A stretch of 64,000 nt of DNA. Source: Aminobacter aminovorans. Lineage in GTDB: Bacteria; Pseudomonadota; Alphaproteobacteria; Rhizobiales; Rhizobiaceae. The stretch covers positions 3,053,501 through 3,117,500 of the forward strand of contig NZ_UFSM01000001.1 of NCBI RefSeq assembly GCF_900445235.1, read 5' to 3'. The notes under the pieces were generated by a model. It was given only the letters and a program-made list of their open reading frames with translations. It searched no databases and was not told the origin of the DNA. Shown one piece after another: positions 56,430 to 63,937 of the stretch. Both the position numbers and the translations under genes were made by a program. Position 1 is the first letter of the stretch, and every line of letters begins with the position of its first letter.

Positions 56430-56840
56430 TCAGGTGCTGAGCGAATTCGAGGCGCGCAGGCTGACGCCGGTGATGCGCCAGATGCCGTCGGGCTGAAGCT
56501 CGAGCGTGTAGACGGCTTCGTAGTCCTTGCCGTCGGCCCCGACGATGATGACCTGCTGGATGATCGACGTCGGGTTCATTTCCTGGAATTTTCCGAATGA
56601 AAAGCTCTGTGGCTTGTGCACCGGCTTGTAGGCGCCTGCCACCATGCTCATGAAGGTGTCGACGGTCGGGAAGATCCGCCTCACATTGGGTGCGGCGTAG
56701 CTGTAGGCGGTGGCATTGTCGTCGGCGCGGAAGGCATGCAACTGGCCGGCAATGCTGTCTTGGGCGGCCTTGATTTCGGCCTCGCCGGCAAATGCCGGAA
56801 GCGACATGAGCAGGCAGGCAAGCAGGGCGGCACGGCGCAT
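56430..56840 (-). CDS. DUF4864 protein with signal peptide
   Basis: 136-residue exported protein. The ATG at 56840 gives MRRAALLACLLMSLPAFAGE, a clear signal peptide. The mature part has DSIAGQLHAFRADDNATAY, then VRRIFPTVDTFMSMVAGAY and KPVHKPQSFSFGKF, the recognisable DUF4864 core, which resembles a SnoaL/NTF2-like cone fold. Function unknown. A longer frame reaching 57098 would run antisense to the next gene and is not accepted. Its stop directly adjoins the stop of the convergent ThDP gene. Confidence 0.85.
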   Translation of the reverse strand: MRRAALLACLLMSLPAFAGEAEIKAAQDSIAGQLHAFRADDNATAYSYAAPNVRRIFPTVDTFMSMVAGAYKPVHKPQSFSFGKFQEMNPTSIIQQVIIVGADGKDYEAVYTLELQPDGIWRITGVSLRASNSLST

Positions 56841-57057: not shown

Positions 57058-57294
57058 ATGAAGACCTTTTTCGTGCAGATCAAATGCGAGCTCGGCAAGG
57101 CCTATGAGGTGGCGAGTGCATTGGCGGACGCCGAAATCGCTTCGGAAATCTATTCGACGGCCGGCAATTTCGACCTGCTGGCAAAGTTCTATGTCGATGA
57201 CGAGGAAGACATCGGCCATTTCGTCAACGAGAAGGTCCATGCCATAGGCAACATCAAGGACACCTTCACCACGGTGACGTTCCGCGCGTTCTGA
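57058..57294 (+). CDS. Stand-alone Lrp/AsnC ligand-binding domain protein
   Basis: 78 residues consisting only of the AsnC-type ligand (RAM) domain, MKTFFVQIKCELGKAYEVAS to IKDTFTTVTFRAF. There is no helix-turn-helix. Such SMLRP proteins form ligand-binding oligomers and may modulate full-length Lrp regulators. The ATG at 57058 follows a GGA-rich site; an in-frame ATG at 57046 would add four residues. Confidence 0.88.
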   Translation: MKTFFVQIKCELGKAYEVASALADAEIASEIYSTAGNFDLLAKFYVDDEEDIGHFVNEKVHAIGNIKDTFTTVTFRAF

Positions 57295-57441
57295 GCGCTG
57301 AAACGGCAGGTATCTGCCCATGTCGCCTGCATGCTGCCAAAAAGACGGGCAATTTCCTGATAAATAAGCCGGCTGGCATCGAAACCGGCGATTGCGCTTG
57401 ATTTTCTCTCACGAGGTCATTTCACTGGCCATGAGGGGAGT

Positions 57442-58860
57442 TTGCCATTGGTTGCGTTCGACGAAATGCTGCCGGCAGAAGCCGGACTGAGAAGACCCTA
57501 CGAAGCCTATGACGGCTGGCTGAAAAATCAGGATCCTGCCCGACTTACAGAGAAGATGCGCGATGCCGAGCGGGTGTTCCGCAAGACCGGCATCACCTTT
57601 GCCGTCTATGGCGAGCAGGAAGCATCGGAACGGCTGATCCCGTTCGACATCGTCCCCCGCATCATATCAGGCAATGAGTGGCGCCGGCTGACACAAGGCA
57701 TAGAGCAGCGCGTGCAGGCGCTGAACGCTTTCCTAGACGACATCTACCACCGTCAGGAGATACTCCGCGCTGGACGTGTGCCGCGGGAGCTGATCGCTGC
57801 CAACGAGGCCTTCCTGCCTGAAATGATCGGGGTCCGGCCGCCGGCGGGCGTCTACACCCACATCATCGGCGTCGACGTCGTGCGCATCTCCGAGAACGAG
57901 TTCTACGTGCTTGAGGACAATGCGCGCACGCCCTCCGGCGTGTCCTATATGCTCGAGAACCGCGAAACGATGCTGCAGCTCTTCCCCGAGCTGTTCCAGC
58001 GCATCAAGGTGCATCCGGTCGAGAACTATCCGCAACTGCTCAGGCAGTCGCTGGCCGCGGTGCGGCCCAACGGGGTGAGTGGCGCCCCGACGATTGCGGT
58101 GCTGACGCCGGGCAGCTTCAACTCGGCCTACTTCGAGCATGCATTCCTGGCCGACCAGATGGGCGTGCAACTGGTGGAGGGGCAGGATTTGCGCGTCGTC
58201 GACGGCCATGTGGCGATGCGCACGACCGAAGGCTACAAGCGGATCGACGTGCTCTACCGCCGCGTCGACGACGCTTATCTCGACCCGTTGACCTTCAATC
58301 CGGATTCAGCGCTTGGCGTGCCCGGCATCATGGACGTCTACCGCGCCGGCAACATCACCATCGCCAACGCTCCCGGCACTGGCATCGCTGACGACAAAGC
58401 GATCTACTCCTATATGCCCGAGATCGTCGAGTTCTATACCGGACGCAAGCCGATCCTCGGCAACATCCCGACCTGGCGCTGCTCGGAACCCGACAGCCTG
58501 AAGTATGTCCAGGAGCACCTGGCCGAACTGGTGGTCAAGGAAGTGCACGGTTCGGGCGGCTATGGCATGCTGGTCGGGCCGGCCGCGTCCAGGAAAGAGC
58601 GCGAGGAGTTTTCGAAGAAACTCGCAGCACGCCCGTCGAACTACATCGCCCAGCCCACGCTGTCGCTGTCGACCTGCCCGATCCTGACCGAGAAGGGCCT
58701 GGCCCCGCGCCACGTTGACCTCAGGCCGTTCGTGCTGGTCTCTGATCGCATCCGCATCGTGCCCGGCGGGTTGACGCGGGTAGCGCTCAAGGAAGGTTCG
58801 CTTGTGGTGAACTCGTCTCAAGGTGGCGGGACAAAAGACACGTGGGTTTTGGACGACTGA
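57442..58860 (+). CDS. Circularly permuted ATP-grasp family protein
   Basis: 472-residue protein of the CP_ATPgrasp_2/COG2308 family, a predicted ATP-dependent carboxylate-amine ligase. Conserved segments include GITFAVYG, FDIVPRIISGNEW, VLEDNARTPSGVSYMLENR, VLYRRVDDAYLDP, IANAPGTGIADDK and KEVHGSGGYGMLVGPAA, which supply ATP and metal ligands. The start is TTG at 57442 after GGGGAG; the TTG at 57448 is an alternative. It leads the four-gene Anbu cluster, 17 nt before the alpha-E gene. Confidence 0.9.
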   Translation: MPLVAFDEMLPAEAGLRRPYEAYDGWLKNQDPARLTEKMRDAERVFRKTGITFAVYGEQEASERLIPFDIVPRIISGNEWRRLTQGIEQRVQALNAFLDDIYHRQEILRAGRVPRELIAANEAFLPEMIGVRPPAGVYTHIIGVDVVRISENEFYVLEDNARTPSGVSYMLENRETMLQLFPELFQRIKVHPVENYPQLLRQSLAAVRPNGVSGAPTIAVLTPGSFNSAYFEHAFLADQMGVQLVEGQDLRVVDGHVAMRTTEGYKRIDVLYRRVDDAYLDPLTFNPDSALGVPGIMDVYRAGNITIANAPGTGIADDKAIYSYMPEIVEFYTGRKPILGNIPTWRCSEPDSLKYVQEHLAELVVKEVHGSGGYGMLVGPAASRKEREEFSKKLAARPSNYIAQPTLSLSTCPILTEKGLAPRHVDLRPFVLVSDRIRIVPGGLTRVALKEGSLVVNSSQGGGTKDTWVLDD

Positions 58861-58877
58861 GGGGACGCTGAGACTTC

Positions 58878-59819
58878 ATGCTTCTGGGACGCACAGCCAA
58901 CGGCCTTTACTGGATGAACCGCTATATCGAGCGGACCGAGAACATGGCGAGGCTGATCGATGCCGGCCTTCGCATCGCGCTGACCCGCAGCCAGGATGCC
59001 TCGGAGGAATGGAAATCGGTGCTGCTGTCGGCGGGAGCGGCAACGTCTTTCGCCGCCAAGCACAGCGACTACACGGCCGAAAACGTCGCCGACTTCCTGC
59101 TGCGCGACATGTCGAACCCGTCGAGCGCTGTGGCGGCGATCGAAACCGCGCGCAACAATGCGCGGATGGTGCGCACCGCGCTGACGCGGGAAACCTGGGA
59201 GAGCATCAACGAAGCCTGGATGTCGCTGAAGCGCGTTCTGGCGAGCCCGATCGACCAGCGCGAACTGCCCGGCGTGCTGGACGCCATCAAGCGCGAGACG
59301 GCGCTGATCCGAGGCTCGTTCTATGGCACCATGCTGCGCAACGAGATCTTCGACTTCGCCCAGCTCGGCACCTATGTCGAGCGCGCCGACAACACCGCGC
59401 GCATTCTCGACGTCAAATATTACGTGCTGCTGCCCTCGGTCTCCTGGGTCGGCTCGTCGCTCGACAACTACCAGTGGGAATCGATCCTGCGCTCGGTGGC
59501 GGCGCACCGATCCTATCGCTGGGTCTACGAGGCCGAATACAAGCCGACCAACATCGCGGAATATCTGATCCTCAATGCGCGCATGCCGCGTTCGCTGTCG
59601 TTCAGCTATCGCTTCCTTGCCGAGCATCTGAAGTTCCTCGGCGAAGATTATGGCGCCCGGCATCCGGCGCAGGAGATCGCCGAGCGGATCTATGCCCGTC
59701 TGCGTGGCACCGAGATCAAGGACATCTTCGAAACCGGTCTGCACGAGTTCCTGGCCGACTTCATCAGGGAAAATAATCGGCTGGGCGATCAGGTCGCCCA
59801 GGATTTCGGCTTTTATTGA
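58878..59819 (+). CDS. Alpha-E domain protein
   Basis: 313-residue all-helical protein of the COG2307 (alpha-E) family. It begins MLLGRTANGLYWMNRYIERTEN, with charged helices throughout and a conserved FLAEHLKFLGEDYG near the end. Its activity is unknown; it almost always accompanies the ATP-grasp protein, sometimes as a fusion. It lies between the ligase and the transglutaminase-like gene with 17-nt and 9-nt gaps. Confidence 0.92.
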   Translation: MLLGRTANGLYWMNRYIERTENMARLIDAGLRIALTRSQDASEEWKSVLLSAGAATSFAAKHSDYTAENVADFLLRDMSNPSSAVAAIETARNNARMVRTALTRETWESINEAWMSLKRVLASPIDQRELPGVLDAIKRETALIRGSFYGTMLRNEIFDFAQLGTYVERADNTARILDVKYYVLLPSVSWVGSSLDNYQWESILRSVAAHRSYRWVYEAEYKPTNIAEYLILNARMPRSLSFSYRFLAEHLKFLGEDYGARHPAQEIAERIYARLRGTEIKDIFETGLHEFLADFIRENNRLGDQVAQDFGFY

Positions 59820-59828
59820 TCGGATAGG

Positions 59829-60626
59829 ATGATGCGGCTCAAGGTCAGCCACCGCACAGAATACAGCTATGACGAGCCGATCCGCTACGGCCTGCAGCGG
59901 CTCAGGCTGTGGCCCGCGAGCGGACCGGCGCAGACGATGCTGACCTGGGCGCTGCACATCGAAGGCGCGCGGGAGGAGGTGCGTTTCCTCGATCAGTTCG
60001 GCAACGACACGCGGCTTCTGTCCATCGATGGCGATCCGCATACGATCAGCGTGGTGGCTGAGGGCGAGATAGAGACCAACGATACGGCTGGTGTTTCGGG
60101 ACCACATCGCGGTTTTGCGCCGCTCTGGCTGTTCGAACACCAGACGCCGCTGACGGCGCCCGGCACAGCGATCCGCGATCTGGCGGCAAGTGTGGGCGAT
60201 GGCGGCGATCTGCAGCGGCTGCACGGGTTGATGGCGCTCATCCAGCAGCGGATAGCTTATGTCACCGGCACGACGGACTCGCGCACGACCGCCGAGGAAG
60301 CACTGGTGAAAGGGACCGGCGTCTGCCAGGACCACTCACATGTATTTGCCGCTTCGGCCCGGCTGCTTGGATTTCCCGCGCGCTATGTCAGCGGCTACCT
60401 GATGATGAACGACCGGGTCGACCAGGTTGCCACGCACGCCTGGGCGGAGGCCTATGTCAGCGACCTCGGCTGGGTCGGGTTCGATGCAGCCAACGGCATG
60501 TCGCCCGACGAACGCTATGTGCGCGTGGCTGTCGGCCGCGACTATCGCGAGGCGATGCCGATAGCCGGCATTCTGATCGGGCATGCGCAGGAACGGCTTG
60601 CAGTCCACATCACGGTAGAGCAGTAA
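59829..60626 (+). CDS. Transglutaminase-like cysteine protease family protein
   Basis: 265 residues, COG1305 type, with an N-terminal bacterial transglutaminase-like domain (MRLKVSHRTEYSYDEP) and a catalytic core. The Cys-His-Asp triad is visible: Cys in GTGVCQDHSHVF, His in ATHAWAEAYV and Asp in WVGFDAANG. It probably acts as a peptidase or amide-bond enzyme on a peptide substrate made by the neighbouring ligase. No signal peptide is present. Confidence 0.93.
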   Translation: MMRLKVSHRTEYSYDEPIRYGLQRLRLWPASGPAQTMLTWALHIEGAREEVRFLDQFGNDTRLLSIDGDPHTISVVAEGEIETNDTAGVSGPHRGFAPLWLFEHQTPLTAPGTAIRDLAASVGDGGDLQRLHGLMALIQQRIAYVTGTTDSRTTAEEALVKGTGVCQDHSHVFAASARLLGFPARYVSGYLMMNDRVDQVATHAWAEAYVSDLGWVGFDAANGMSPDERYVRVAVGRDYREAMPIAGILIGHAQERLAVHITVEQ

Positions 60627-60660
60627 TCCGGCATAAGAACATTCGCCGGAACTGGAATCG

Positions 60661-61392
60661 ATGACCTATTGCGTCGGCATGAAAATTGACCGTGGCCTGG
60701 TGTTCATGTCGGACACGCGGACCAATGCCGGGGTCGACAATATCTCTACCTTTCGCAAGATGCGCATCTGGGAGCAGCCAGGCGAGCGCGTGGTCGTCTT
60801 GATGTCGGCCGGTAATCTGGCCACCACGCAGGCCGTGGTCAGCCTGCTCGACGAGCGCACCAAGGCTGCCGCCGAGCGGGCGCCGACGCTGCTCGAAGCG
60901 CCTTCGATGTTCCAGATCGCACGCATCGTCGGCGACACGGTCAAGGAAGTGATCGCCCAGTCGGCCCCGGCCGGCCAGACGGCGGATGCGGCCTTCAACG
61001 CCTCCTTCATTCTCGGCGGCCAGGTCAAGGGCAGCGAACCCCGGCTGTTCATGATCTATCCCGAAGGCAATTTCGTCGAATGCAGTGACGACACGCCGTT
61101 CTTCCAGATCGGAGAGACCAAATATGGCAAGCCGATCATCGTGCGCGCCTATGACCGTGCAATGAGCTTCGCCGAAACCGTGAAGCTCTTGATGGTGTCG
61201 TTCGATTCGACGCTGAAGTCGAACCTGTCGGTCGGCCTGCCGCTCGATCTGGCCTTCTACGAGAAGGACAGTTTCAAGATCGGGCTGAAGAGGCGCATCG
61301 GCGCCGACGATCCCTATTACCGGAGTGTGTCCGAAGGCTGGTCGGATGCCTTGAAGGCCGCGTTCCAGAGCTTGCCCGATTTCATCGAATAA
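60661..61392 (+). CDS. Anbu proteasome-type protease
   Basis: Ancestral beta-subunit-type protease (COG3484), 243 residues. After Met removal the N-terminal Thr (MTYCVGMKIDRGLVF) is the nucleophile; Asp18 and Lys33 (SDTRTN, STFRKMR) complete the triad in the same spacing as proteasome T1, D17 and K33. SAGNLATTQAVV is the other expected pocket segment. Anbu forms helical lock-washer assemblies rather than closed barrels. Last gene of the ATP-grasp cluster. Confidence 0.94.
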   Translation: MTYCVGMKIDRGLVFMSDTRTNAGVDNISTFRKMRIWEQPGERVVVLMSAGNLATTQAVVSLLDERTKAAAERAPTLLEAPSMFQIARIVGDTVKEVIAQSAPAGQTADAAFNASFILGGQVKGSEPRLFMIYPEGNFVECSDDTPFFQIGETKYGKPIIVRAYDRAMSFAETVKLLMVSFDSTLKSNLSVGLPLDLAFYEKDSFKIGLKRRIGADDPYYRSVSEGWSDALKAAFQSLPDFIE

Positions 61393-61440: not shown

Positions 61441-62853
61441 ATGGATAGCGAGGCGTTTCGCCATTGGTCGCAGAAGGCCGCCGAATGGGGAGCCGACTAC
61501 CGCGTCGGCCTGCGCGACCTGCCGGTGCGACCGCGCCTCGAGCCGGGTCAGGTGTTAGCCTCGATTGAGGCCAGCCCGCCCGAAACCGCCGAGCCGATGG
61601 AGGCGATCTTCGCTGACTTTGAGGCCAAGATCGTGCCGGGCATGACGCATTGGCAGCATCCGCGCTTTTTCGCCTATTTTCCGGCCAATGCGGCACCGGT
61701 GTCGGTGGTGGCCGAATATCTGGTCAGCGCCATGGCGGCGCAATGTATGCTGTGGCAGACCTCGCCGGCGGCGACCGAACTCGAGACCCGCGTCGTCGAC
61801 TGGATGCGCCAGGCCCTCGGGCTGCCTGAAAGCTTTACCGGTGTGATCCAGGATTCGGCTTCGTCGGCAACGCTCGCCGCCGTTCTGACCATGCGCGAAC
61901 GCGCACTCGACTGGCAGGGCAACAAATCGGGCCTGTCGGCTGCGCCTGGGATTCGCGTCTATTGCTCGGAGCACGTGCACACGTCGATCGATCGCGCCAT
62001 CTGGATATCAGGCATTGGCGAAGACAATCTCGTGCGCATTCCGAGCGAGGGGCGCTTTCGCGCCATGTCGCCCGAGGCACTGGATGCGGCAATCGTAGAG
62101 GACCGCAAGAATGGCCTGCTGCCGGCCGGCATCATTGCCTGTGTCGGCGGCACCAGCGTGGGCGGCACCGACGACGTGGCGGCGGTCGTGGAGGTGGCCA
62201 TGCGCCACGGCCTCTATGTCCATGTCGACGCGGCCTGGGCCGGCTCGGCGATGATCTGTCCGGAGTTTCGCCACTTCTGGGCAGGTGTCGAGGGCGCGGA
62301 TTCCATTGTCTTCAATCCGCATAAGTGGCTGGGGGCGCAGTTCGACTGTTCGATCCAGTTCATCCGCGATCCCGAAAGCCTCGTACGCACGCTGGCGATC
62401 CGGCCGGAGTTCCTGAAGACGCATGGCCGCGACGGCATCACGAATTATTCCGAGTGGTCGGTACCGCTCGGTCGACGCTTCCGGGCGCTGAAACTGTGGT
62501 TTCTGCTGCGTGCGCATGGGCTGGATGGCTTGCGCGGGATGATCCGCAATCATGTCAGATGGAGCGAGGGGCTGGCTCAGCGACTGGGTCGTGAGGTCGA
62601 TTTCGAGATCACCAGCGAGCCTATGCTGTCGCTGTTTTCGTTCCGTCATGCGCCGCCGGGCGTTGACGATCTCGACGACCACAATCTGGCGCTGGTCGAG
62701 GCGATCAATCGGGATGGACGGATCTATCTGACGCAGACGCGGCTCGACGGGCGCGCCGTGATCCGCTTCCAGGCCGGGGAGTTCGAAGCGACCGAGGCCG
62801 ATGTCGACAAGGCGTTCGACGTAATCGTCGAGCTTGCCCGAACCGCGGGATGA
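61441..62853 (+). CDS. Group II PLP-dependent decarboxylase (aromatic amino acid type)
   Basis: 470-residue fold-type I decarboxylase. The N-terminal block GMTHWQHPRFFAYFPAN is the aromatic L-amino acid decarboxylase signature, with VHVDAAWAGSAM for cofactor binding and the PLP lysine in FNPHKWLGAQFD. The substrate could be Trp, Tyr, Phe, DOPA or another aromatic amino acid. The ATG at 61441 is 48 nt after the Anbu stop; cotranscription is possible but a functional link is not evident. Confidence 0.9.
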   Translation: MDSEAFRHWSQKAAEWGADYRVGLRDLPVRPRLEPGQVLASIEASPPETAEPMEAIFADFEAKIVPGMTHWQHPRFFAYFPANAAPVSVVAEYLVSAMAAQCMLWQTSPAATELETRVVDWMRQALGLPESFTGVIQDSASSATLAAVLTMRERALDWQGNKSGLSAAPGIRVYCSEHVHTSIDRAIWISGIGEDNLVRIPSEGRFRAMSPEALDAAIVEDRKNGLLPAGIIACVGGTSVGGTDDVAAVVEVAMRHGLYVHVDAAWAGSAMICPEFRHFWAGVEGADSIVFNPHKWLGAQFDCSIQFIRDPESLVRTLAIRPEFLKTHGRDGITNYSEWSVPLGRRFRALKLWFLLRAHGLDGLRGMIRNHVRWSEGLAQRLGREVDFEITSEPMLSLFSFRHAPPGVDDLDDHNLALVEAINRDGRIYLTQTRLDGRAVIRFQAGEFEATEADVDKAFDVIVELARTAG

Positions 62854-62871: not shown

Positions 62872-62907
62872 AAAGCCGGCCGGAACATGACGTCCCGGCC
62901 GGCTTTT
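62872..62907. terminator. Bidirectional terminator between decarboxylase and terC
   Basis: GCCGGCCGG and CCGGCCGGC form a 9-bp stem with an 11-nt loop, flanked by AAA on the left and TTTT on the right. It lies between convergent genes. Confidence 0.9.
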
Positions 62908-62918
62908 GTTTAAGCGTG

Positions 62919-63575
62919 TCAGGCGCCCCGGATGTAAGGCAGCACCTCGATCGTGCCGCGATAGATCATTTCGCCCGCGACATAGAGAATGATGACCAGG
63001 CCGACATAGGCGATCCAACGGTACTTCTGCAGCAGGTTGGCGATGAAGCTCGCTGCAACGCCCATCAGCGCGATCGACAGCACGAGGCCGAAGATCAGAA
63101 CGTTGGGATGGTCGCGCGCGGCACCGGCGACGGCCAGCACATTGTCGAGAGACATCGAGACGTCGGCGATGAGGATCTGCCAGGCGGCCTGGGCAAAGGT
63201 CTTGCGCGGCGCGGTACCCGCGACCTTGCCGTCCTTGTCGATATCCCGGTCGGACAGGGCTTCGACGGCCTGGGTTTCCTCGGCATGGCTGTGGCGGAGT
63301 TCACGCCACATCTTCCAGCACACCCACAAAAGCAGCACGCCACCGGCGAGCAGCAGGCCGACGATCTGGAGAAGCTGGGTCGTTGCAGCGGCAAAGCCGA
63401 TACGGAGCACCGTTGCGGCGATGATACCGACCAAGATCGCCTTGGCGCGCTGGTCCTTGGGCAGGCCCGCGGCGGCGAGGCCGATGACGATGGCATTGTC
63501 ACCGGCCAGAACCAGATCGATCATGATGACCTGGAAGAGGGCGGTCAGGGCCTCGGGGGTAAAGAATTCTGTCAT
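62919..63575 (-). CDS. TerC-family membrane protein
   Basis: 218 residues with about seven membrane helices. Characteristic blocks: DLVLAGDNAIVIGLAAAGLP (conserved acidic residues in membrane) and its repeat DVSMSLDNVLAVAGAA. TerC/Alx-type proteins have been linked to manganese export and metal loading of exported enzymes; direct tellurite resistance is not implied. The ATG at 63575 (MTEFFTPEALTALF) is used; an in-frame upstream ATG at 63632 adds a non-conserved leader. I could not recognise a yybP-ykoY manganese riboswitch upstream. Confidence 0.92.
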   Translation of the reverse strand: MTEFFTPEALTALFQVIMIDLVLAGDNAIVIGLAAAGLPKDQRAKAILVGIIAATVLRIGFAAATTQLLQIVGLLLAGGVLLLWVCWKMWRELRHSHAEETQAVEALSDRDIDKDGKVAGTAPRKTFAQAAWQILIADVSMSLDNVLAVAGAARDHPNVLIFGLVLSIALMGVAASFIANLLQKYRWIAYVGLVIILYVAGEMIYRGTIEVLPYIRGA

Positions 63576-63937
63576 ATGGCACCCTTTGCTTTCAGCAAGG
63601 GCGGCGTGGCTTGCAGACATGATCTGCCGCACCGGGATGGCTCCGGTCTAGCAAGAATCAGGACGTGCTGAGTGGTGAATGCATGTTGAGCCAGGCCGCC
63701 GGATTGGAAACTCCAGTCCGACATCGCAGCCATGGTGACTGCCAGAGGGGCCCGGCCTGGGTGGCAGGTTGGTAATCGATCGCTGCGCGGATTTCAAGGC
63801 CGAAACCGCATTTGTTCCACATCCCGCGGAGGCGGGATATTCGACCAATGCGGCTTCGATGTGACTTTCGAAGTGCCTTTTCACTGCTTTCGTTCTGGCC
63901 TATCGTTGCTCAAAACGAAATTCAGGGAACGCTCATC
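63576..63937. other. 362-nt divergent spacer between terC and a DeoR-type gene
   Basis: No gene is seen. The left part is the terC leader. The right part contains TTTCGAA (63867-63873), TTTCGTT (63889-63895) and AACGAAA (63914-63920), repeated TTTCG-type elements known from DeoR/GlpR-family operators. Confidence 0.55.
63889..63920. promoter_or_regulatory. Candidate DeoR/GlpR operator
   Basis: TTTCGTT and AACGAAA form an inverted repeat with an 18-nt spacer, 18 nt upstream of the regulator start; a further TTTCGAA is at 63867. The pattern suggests autoregulation. Inferred from motif resemblance only. Confidence 0.45.

Follow-up and report, generated by a model that had tools for sequence, protein, structure and literature searches.

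What do the four proteins of a bacterial Anbu operon do together, and do they have to act in one line? The question is raised by the window, i.e. the whole stretch of 64,000 nucleotides (nt) of Aminobacter aminovorans DNA analysed here (contig NZ_UFSM01000001.1, positions 3,053,501 to 3,117,500), in which four + strand genes at 57448-61392 encode an ATP-grasp ligase, an alpha-E protein, a transglutaminase-fold cysteine hydrolase and Anbu, a proteasome-like N-terminal-nucleophile (Ntn) hydrolase, with gaps of 17, 9 and 34 nt. The cluster is the already published Anbu operon, now in an Aminobacter; the four genes, their order and solved Anbu structures have been described, together with proposals of peptide synthesis, tagging and degradation (PMC5666114, PMC6376114; these and all further publications are cited from excerpts). 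An initial annotation had rightly stated that this neighbourhood had been noticed before, and had proposed a joint pathway whose ligase product is trimmed or broken down by the two peptidases, parallel to the Pup-proteasome system. The comparison across genomes presented here suggests that ligase and alpha-E constitute the core of the system and that the two hydrolases attach to it independently, and it speaks against an obligate tag-and-degrade line.

The identities and the gaps on the + strand given in the annotation were borne out by Pfam and PDB matches. The first gene (57448-58860, TTG start, 470 amino acids) encodes a circularly permuted ATP-grasp type 2 ligase of the COG2308 type (PF14403, CP_ATPgrasp_2, 554 bits, E-value 2.1e-166), the nearest solved structure being 3n6x (E-value 2.8e-198). 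Its residues D143, E156, N158 and K364 and the Gly-rich stretch 368-373 are invariant in 22 aligned sequences, and we take them to be Mg and ATP ligands. At 84% (22 sequences) its mean column identity exceeds that of alpha-E (71%), hydrolase (67%) and Anbu (71%), the sequence sets differing between the proteins. A Pfam search up to an E-value of 10 returned PF14403, PF04174 and, below threshold, PF14397, but no family of the glutathionylspermidine/glutathione synthetases, with which the ligase shares the ATP-grasp fold class, and the ligase profile matched nothing in the PDB besides 3n6x and, at chance level, one ribosomal protein. The start of the gene, previously set at 57442, is judged to lie at 57448, because the Shine-Dalgarno-like GAGGGGAG (57433-57440) is spaced 1 nt from the former position and 7 nt from the in-frame TTG at the latter, and because, of the 48 distinct loci with the upstream box described below (window included), 32 have TTG and 15 have GTG at the homologous codon.

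The second gene (58878-59819) encodes the 313-residue alpha-E protein of the COG2307 type (PF04168, 309 bits, E-value 5.4e-92), which is 98% identical to the A. aganoensis and A. carboxidus proteins, as is the ligase to the A. niigataensis protein. By sequence comparison, alpha-E is composed of two homologous halves: residues 15-97 align with residues 165-253 (hhalign score 77.2, E-value 2e-12), whereas 40 column shuffles reached a maximum score of 21.0 and the reversed half scored 13.5, and an ER motif is present near residue 18 and again near residue 168. Presumably, Pfam already describes the family as a tandem duplication. Sequence searches found no solved relative of alpha-E, and a scan of viral contigs found no relative. 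A fusion of the ligase and alpha-E genes was sought as evidence for a complex, and there was none in 10 loci, several of them picked for large open frames.

The cysteine hydrolase (59829-60626, with an alternative start possible at a second ATG 3 nt downstream) combines PF01841 (Transglut_core, 81 bits) and PF08379 (Bact_transglu_N, 71 bits) and matches 3isr (E-value 2.2e-14). The Cys-His-Asp set named in the initial annotation, i.e. C166, H203 and D219, is invariant in 21 aligned sequences, and the same is true in 12 sequences for Anbu residues T2, D18 and K33, which had been called intact there, and for the pocket residues T21, F31, L53 and T56. Anbu (60661-61392; Proteasome 29.5 bits, cut-off 22.4) matches five PDB sequences (best E-value 1.4e-96), of which 5loy, 5nyj and 5nyf are named Anbu or designed Anbu and 5nyw and 5lox Peptidase. 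Once Met is removed, Thr2 is the predicted nucleophile. In sequence the protein is of the Anbu-1 type, which is marked by Thr1, Asp17 and Lys32 and the S1 pocket T20, F30, T/S48, L52 and S/T55 in mature numbering and is known for a dodecameric split ring. Compared with Anbu-1 of P. aeruginosa (PMC5666114) the pocket has Ser for Thr at position 48 and Thr for Ser at position 55 and is otherwise the same, and Yersinia Anbu has Ser and Thr at these positions, as here (PMC6376114). Genes, order, motifs and Anbu-1 pocket are thus those of the operon published for Pseudomonas and Yersinia bercovieri, one difference being an extra decarboxylase gene downstream. The small gaps and a promoter-like box upstream of the ligase gene suggest that the four genes are cotranscribed as a predicted operon; the gap before Anbu can form a moderate hairpin without U tail (-13.6 kcal/mol, z -2.6).

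How firmly these genes belong together can be read from related loci. Among the best 80 of 590 alpha-E loci, a ligase gene lies upstream of alpha-E on the same strand, at most 697 nt away, in all 79 with enough sequence. Downstream of alpha-E the hydrolase is found in 77, Anbu in 42 and the decarboxylase in 14 of the 80. Thirty-eight loci contain ligase, alpha-E and hydrolase (L179, L185 and L200, whose downstream flanks are short, are counted here), 24 have Anbu in addition, 14 Anbu and the decarboxylase, three consist of ligase, alpha-E and Anbu, and one is cut off. Four loci (L142, L150, L155, L156) are second copies, which enter the raw counts of the scans for the box, for sigma-54 sites and of the gaps between Anbu and decarboxylase; distinct numbers are stated separately.

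At the level of whole genomes, the order sample yielded Anbu for 190 (297 searched) and alpha-E for 227 (295 searched), and 188 of the 190 Anbu genomes contain both, compared with 145 expected under independence. In the phylum sample (299 genomes) the numbers are 102 for Anbu, 156 for alpha-E and 101 of 102 for both, with 53 expected. As these expectations ignore kinship, the corresponding hypergeometric values are not to be taken at face value. The two Anbu genomes of the order sample lacking alpha-E are G240, where the cluster is broken and the alpha-E region missing, and G296, which perhaps lay outside the alpha-E search. The constant partner of Anbu thus appears to be ligase plus alpha-E rather than the cysteine hydrolase. 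Gene arrangement varies: G570 has the order ligase, alpha-E, Anbu, hydrolase, and in three loci (L245 2259-2990, L253 4762-5472, L254 4601-5320) Anbu lies on the strand opposite to ligase and alpha-E, divergently or convergently, so that it is not always part of the same transcript. In a further locus (L257; G683:C7:212650-213372) the Anbu match contains one internal TAA, while profile positions 1-240 are covered by an Anbu reading of the same stretch.

Each of the two hydrolases can be missing without the other. No Anbu match was found in 9 of 13 whole genomes (seven of Rhizobium type, two Burkholderia), although a distant Anbu could escape the search, and all nine retain ligase, alpha-E and hydrolase; of the others, one Caballeronia has Anbu elsewhere and three Aureimonas have their own Anbu. 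Conversely, PF08379 has no match in the whole genomes G528 and G751, both with ligase, alpha-E and Anbu, and G664 contains one weak match below the cut-off. Hence, either hydrolase can do without its counterpart. According to a tree of 68 alpha-E proteins, built by a quick method, the absence of Anbu corresponds to two changes, one in Rhizobium, Agrobacterium, Sinorhizobium and kin and one in Burkholderiales, and the absence of the hydrolase to one change in Aureimonas (L179, L185 and L200 were left out of the change count and kept in the group table). Of the joint pathway proposed earlier, one conserved functional unit is therefore upheld, but not a single line with both peptidases acting on one tagged product. 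On the same tree the Burkholderiales clusters (L168, L172, L174-L177, L188) nest among alphaproteobacterial ones, their alpha-E proteins lying in a starred group with those of Phyllobacterium and Brucellaceae, which suggests horizontal transfer.

Based on these findings we tentatively favour a reading in which the system serves the nitrogen economy of the cell: ligase and alpha-E would form an amide or peptide bond, and each hydrolase would break it on its own. As judged from its fold, the ligase together with alpha-E would phosphorylate a carboxylate and then join it to an amine, and the product may be a small amide of an amino acid or peptide, perhaps attached to a protein. The cysteine hydrolase and Anbu would each cut this product, either as substitutes for one another or at separate bonds, and not in two obligate steps, because they are absent independently of each other. 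Formation of an acyl phosphate and then of an amide is the chemistry of ATP-grasp synthetases (PMC6376114, PMC10979984), and the Yersinia ligase releases phosphate from ATP (PMC6376114). Such a cycle of amide or peptide bonds would be active at nitrogen shortage in the species that have been measured. In P. putida, PP_2685 (Anbu) and PP_2688 (ligase) rise by 4.44 and 3.99 log2 units on nitrate versus ammonium (PMC8050072), PP_2686 (hydrolase), PP_2687, which would be alpha-E from gene order, and PP_2688 are 11 to 37 fold up under nitrogen limitation in wild type, relA/spoT and rpoN strains, with Anbu itself up 4.81 fold in the relA/spoT mutant (PMC7801951), and PP_2685, PP_2686 and PP_2687 are 11.1, 6.6 and 7.1 fold up under nitrogen versus carbon limitation (PMC3325844). 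Further publications, i.e. a metagenome correlation study that sets these domains near urea metabolism (PMC3597751) and a study on competitiveness (PMC8407117), are cited for context only.

The trio of Rhizobium and Burkholderia, e.g. B. cenocepacia I35_5080-5083, which by gene content would be an Anbu-less trio, comprises related ligase, alpha-E and hydrolase genes in the same order but without Anbu, and in Burkholderia a further transglutaminase-like gene follows and this Anbu-less cluster requires NtrC and sigma-54 (PMC5491218). In agreement with this positive control from the literature, our scan found sigma-54 sites of the -24/-12 type between -76 and -81, matching 10 or 11 of 12 positions, in four of the seven Burkholderiales loci, all four being among the five Burkholderia loci. 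Sites with at least 9 of 12 occur in 7 of 32 Rhizobium-type loci, at differing positions and without conservation of the GG in their shared element. Sigma-54 nitrogen control was dropped as an argument for Aminobacter, given the result for its own type of loci reported next.

Several observations weigh against the amide cycle. Upstream of the ligase gene none of the 32 Mesorhizobium/Aminobacter-type loci (29 distinct) contains a sigma-54 site with at least 9 of 12 matches; this does not exclude nitrogen control, since the P. putida genes rise in the rpoN mutant too, which argues against sigma-54 being strictly required in that species. In the same data set the Anbu gene PP_2685 is up by no more than 1.12 fold (wild type) and 1.45 fold (rpoN mutant), compared with 11 to 20 fold for the other three genes (PMC7801951). 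The nearest solved ligase homologue, 3n6x, bears merely a putative annotation, and no product is known and, as already stated in the initial annotation, no substrate either; a literature search covering open-licence papers showed no later substrate report. Moreover, genome G582 has Anbu without an alpha-E match, and neither ligase, alpha-E nor hydrolase lies within the 11.5 kb fetched around this Anbu gene (L251 4557-5276). Finally, the absences of hydrolase and Anbu are few and bound to lineages, other hydrolases could substitute, and Aureimonas retains PF08379 proteins at other loci.

Protein tagging and turnover, the view of the initial annotation and also a published hypothesis, is an unlikely alternative in which the ligase would modify proteins with an amino acid or peptide, Anbu would degrade or untag them and the cysteine hydrolase would trim. 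The intact Thr, Asp and Lys of a proteasome relative would suit such a role, as would a higher protein turnover under nitrogen limitation, and the many sites per ring together with the binding of the proteasome inhibitors epoxomicin and MG132 to Thr1 have been interpreted as protease function (PMC5666114). However, Anbu is an open split ring (PMC5666114, PMC6376114, PMC8665760), and according to the excerpts it is inactive on standard proteasome substrates and forms no stable complex with other proteins of the operon (PMC6376114, PMC5666114); furthermore, neither hydrolase depends on its counterpart. The gaps of the cluster (17, 9, 34 and, after Anbu, 48 nt) leave no room for a Pup-like tag gene, the genome outside these gaps not having been searched, and Pfam found no AAA+ unfoldase among ten genes tested between 53 and 63.6 kb, operon included, the AAA matches belonging to an ABC-F protein. 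As in the Pup-proteasome system, a ligase and a hydrolase of proteasome fold occur in one system, but the Pup ligase has a glutamine-synthetase fold whereas the ligase here belongs to PF14403/PF04174. The proposed parallel is not supported at these points, and the comparison with Pup may serve as a loose analogy, no more. Very unlikely in our view is a scheme in which no bond is made at all, the ligase being an ATP-dependent activator or sensor while the hydrolases recover nitrogen from amide groups of peptides or proteins during nitrogen starvation. It could draw on the induction of operon genes alongside urea and nitrate uptake genes (PMC5491218, PMC8050072, PMC7801951) and on a proposed release of ammonia by the transglutaminase (PMC6376114), but the intact ATP-grasp residues and top conservation of the ligase, and the rarity of Anbu without alpha-E, weigh against it.

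The remaining alternatives give a role to the extra gene. A Group II pyridoxal-phosphate (PLP) decarboxylase of the aromatic-amino-acid type is encoded at 61441-62853, 48 nt 3' of Anbu on the same strand (PF00282, E-value 1.8e-92). Its nearest solved relatives are 3,4-dihydroxyphenylalanine (DOPA), tyrosine and aromatic-L-amino-acid decarboxylases, the best one being the DOPA decarboxylase 7xin (E-value 1.1e-118), and it has the Group II fold with an NPHK lysine, which we take to bind PLP, a VDAA motif and a loop tyrosine. If the product were a small metabolite, a peptide or an amide, that the cell secretes or stores and the hydrolases mature, this enzyme could supply the aromatic amine in this lineage, a scenario we regard as quite unlikely. 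In a survey of 199 genomes of the family (E-values up to 1e-80 for the decarboxylase and 1e-20 for Anbu; tabulated for all decarboxylase matches and for Anbu from every decarboxylase-bearing genome and part of the rest) 70 contain the decarboxylase, 120 Anbu and 42 both, and in 26 of these 42, from 16 genus groups, the decarboxylase lies directly 3' of Anbu on the same strand at a distance of 26 to 654 nt, an adjacency also present in the 14 named loci given above. In the window the decarboxylase gene is followed by a terminator-like hairpin whose tail is U-rich (62872-62906, + strand, by RNA folding, -25.5 kcal/mol, z -4.9; it might also serve the convergent gene 62919-63632), and no terminator-like fold lies between Anbu and decarboxylase. 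Across loci such hairpins occur in 5 of 31 gaps between Anbu and decarboxylase versus 22 of 46 stretches that follow Anbu without a decarboxylase (Fisher p 0.007), a weak comparison because the former gaps are shorter. Against this stand the 28 of 70 decarboxylase genomes without Anbu and the 16 with the decarboxylase away from it; in 20 of these 44 that were inspected (14 without Anbu, six with Anbu elsewhere) neither ligase, alpha-E nor hydrolase is nearby, and only 9 of 31 distinct loci have a terminator-like hairpin after the decarboxylase. In addition, a DUF4864 gene and an Lrp-like domain are conserved on the other side of the operon, so that inherited gene order explains part of the adjacency, and probably much of it. 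We therefore rejected the decarboxylase, often located elsewhere or in genomes without Anbu, as a core member and consider it a candidate fifth member of the unit within this lineage. Glutathionylspermidine synthetase, an ATP-grasp enzyme, couples its substrate with spermidine, and by the same token the operon of Mesorhizobium and Aminobacter may have taken in the decarboxylase so that ligase and alpha-E couple the carboxylate of an amino acid or peptide to the aromatic amine formed by this enzyme, with Anbu and the hydrolase as separate amidases of the conjugate. This seems very improbable to us; if it were true, Anbu would act as an amidase on a small metabolite and would not be a protease.

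Further features surround the operon. The promoter-like box GATTGCGCTTGATTTTC (57390-57406, + strand), recognized by its conservation among relatives, lies 58 nt upstream of the ligase start. It is complete (17 of 17) in 20 and matches at least 15 of 17 positions in 31 of 113 distinct loci, window included, and in all 31 it is placed 57 to 62 nt ahead of the ligase gene's start; its promoter role is a conjecture, and a sigma-70 scan found no promoter there or elsewhere in its range. The first 16 bases of the box occur once exactly and twice with 2 mismatches in the genome (control 0), and with one exact copy its use as a regulon marker found no support. The same scan, a simple one for promoters and terminators, performed at chance, returning no promoter and four terminators versus 4.0 expected, one of them inside the decarboxylase gene on the + strand, and did not list the hairpin at 62872-62906. 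Upstream of the box a stand-alone Lrp/AsnC ligand-binding domain is encoded, of 78 amino acids if read from the ATG at 57058 (57058-57294, + strand, with the open frame reaching back to 56950; PF01037, E-value 3.7e-12 when read from 57055), for which Pfam found no DNA-binding part. Its gene probably belongs to a transcript separate from that of the operon. Such a domain is found at the same place in many Mesorhizobium/Aminobacter loci and could sense an amino acid. The DUF4864 protein, with a signal-like N-terminus, is encoded on the - strand (56430-56840) and is kept beside the operon in many Mesorhizobium-type loci.

Anbu is a common relative of the proteasome, present in 102 of the 299 genomes of the phylum sample, and several of its structures have been solved. 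The comparison presented here directs attention to its partner, the ligase/alpha-E pair, and to modules that may be separable one by one. For this purpose the Aminobacter genome offers a simple case: many relatives carry two alpha-E genes, whereas this genome has no second alpha-E match and one match each for the PF14403 ligase, PF04168 alpha-E, PF08379 hydrolase and Anbu, and single deletions are therefore unlikely to be masked by a second alpha-E set.

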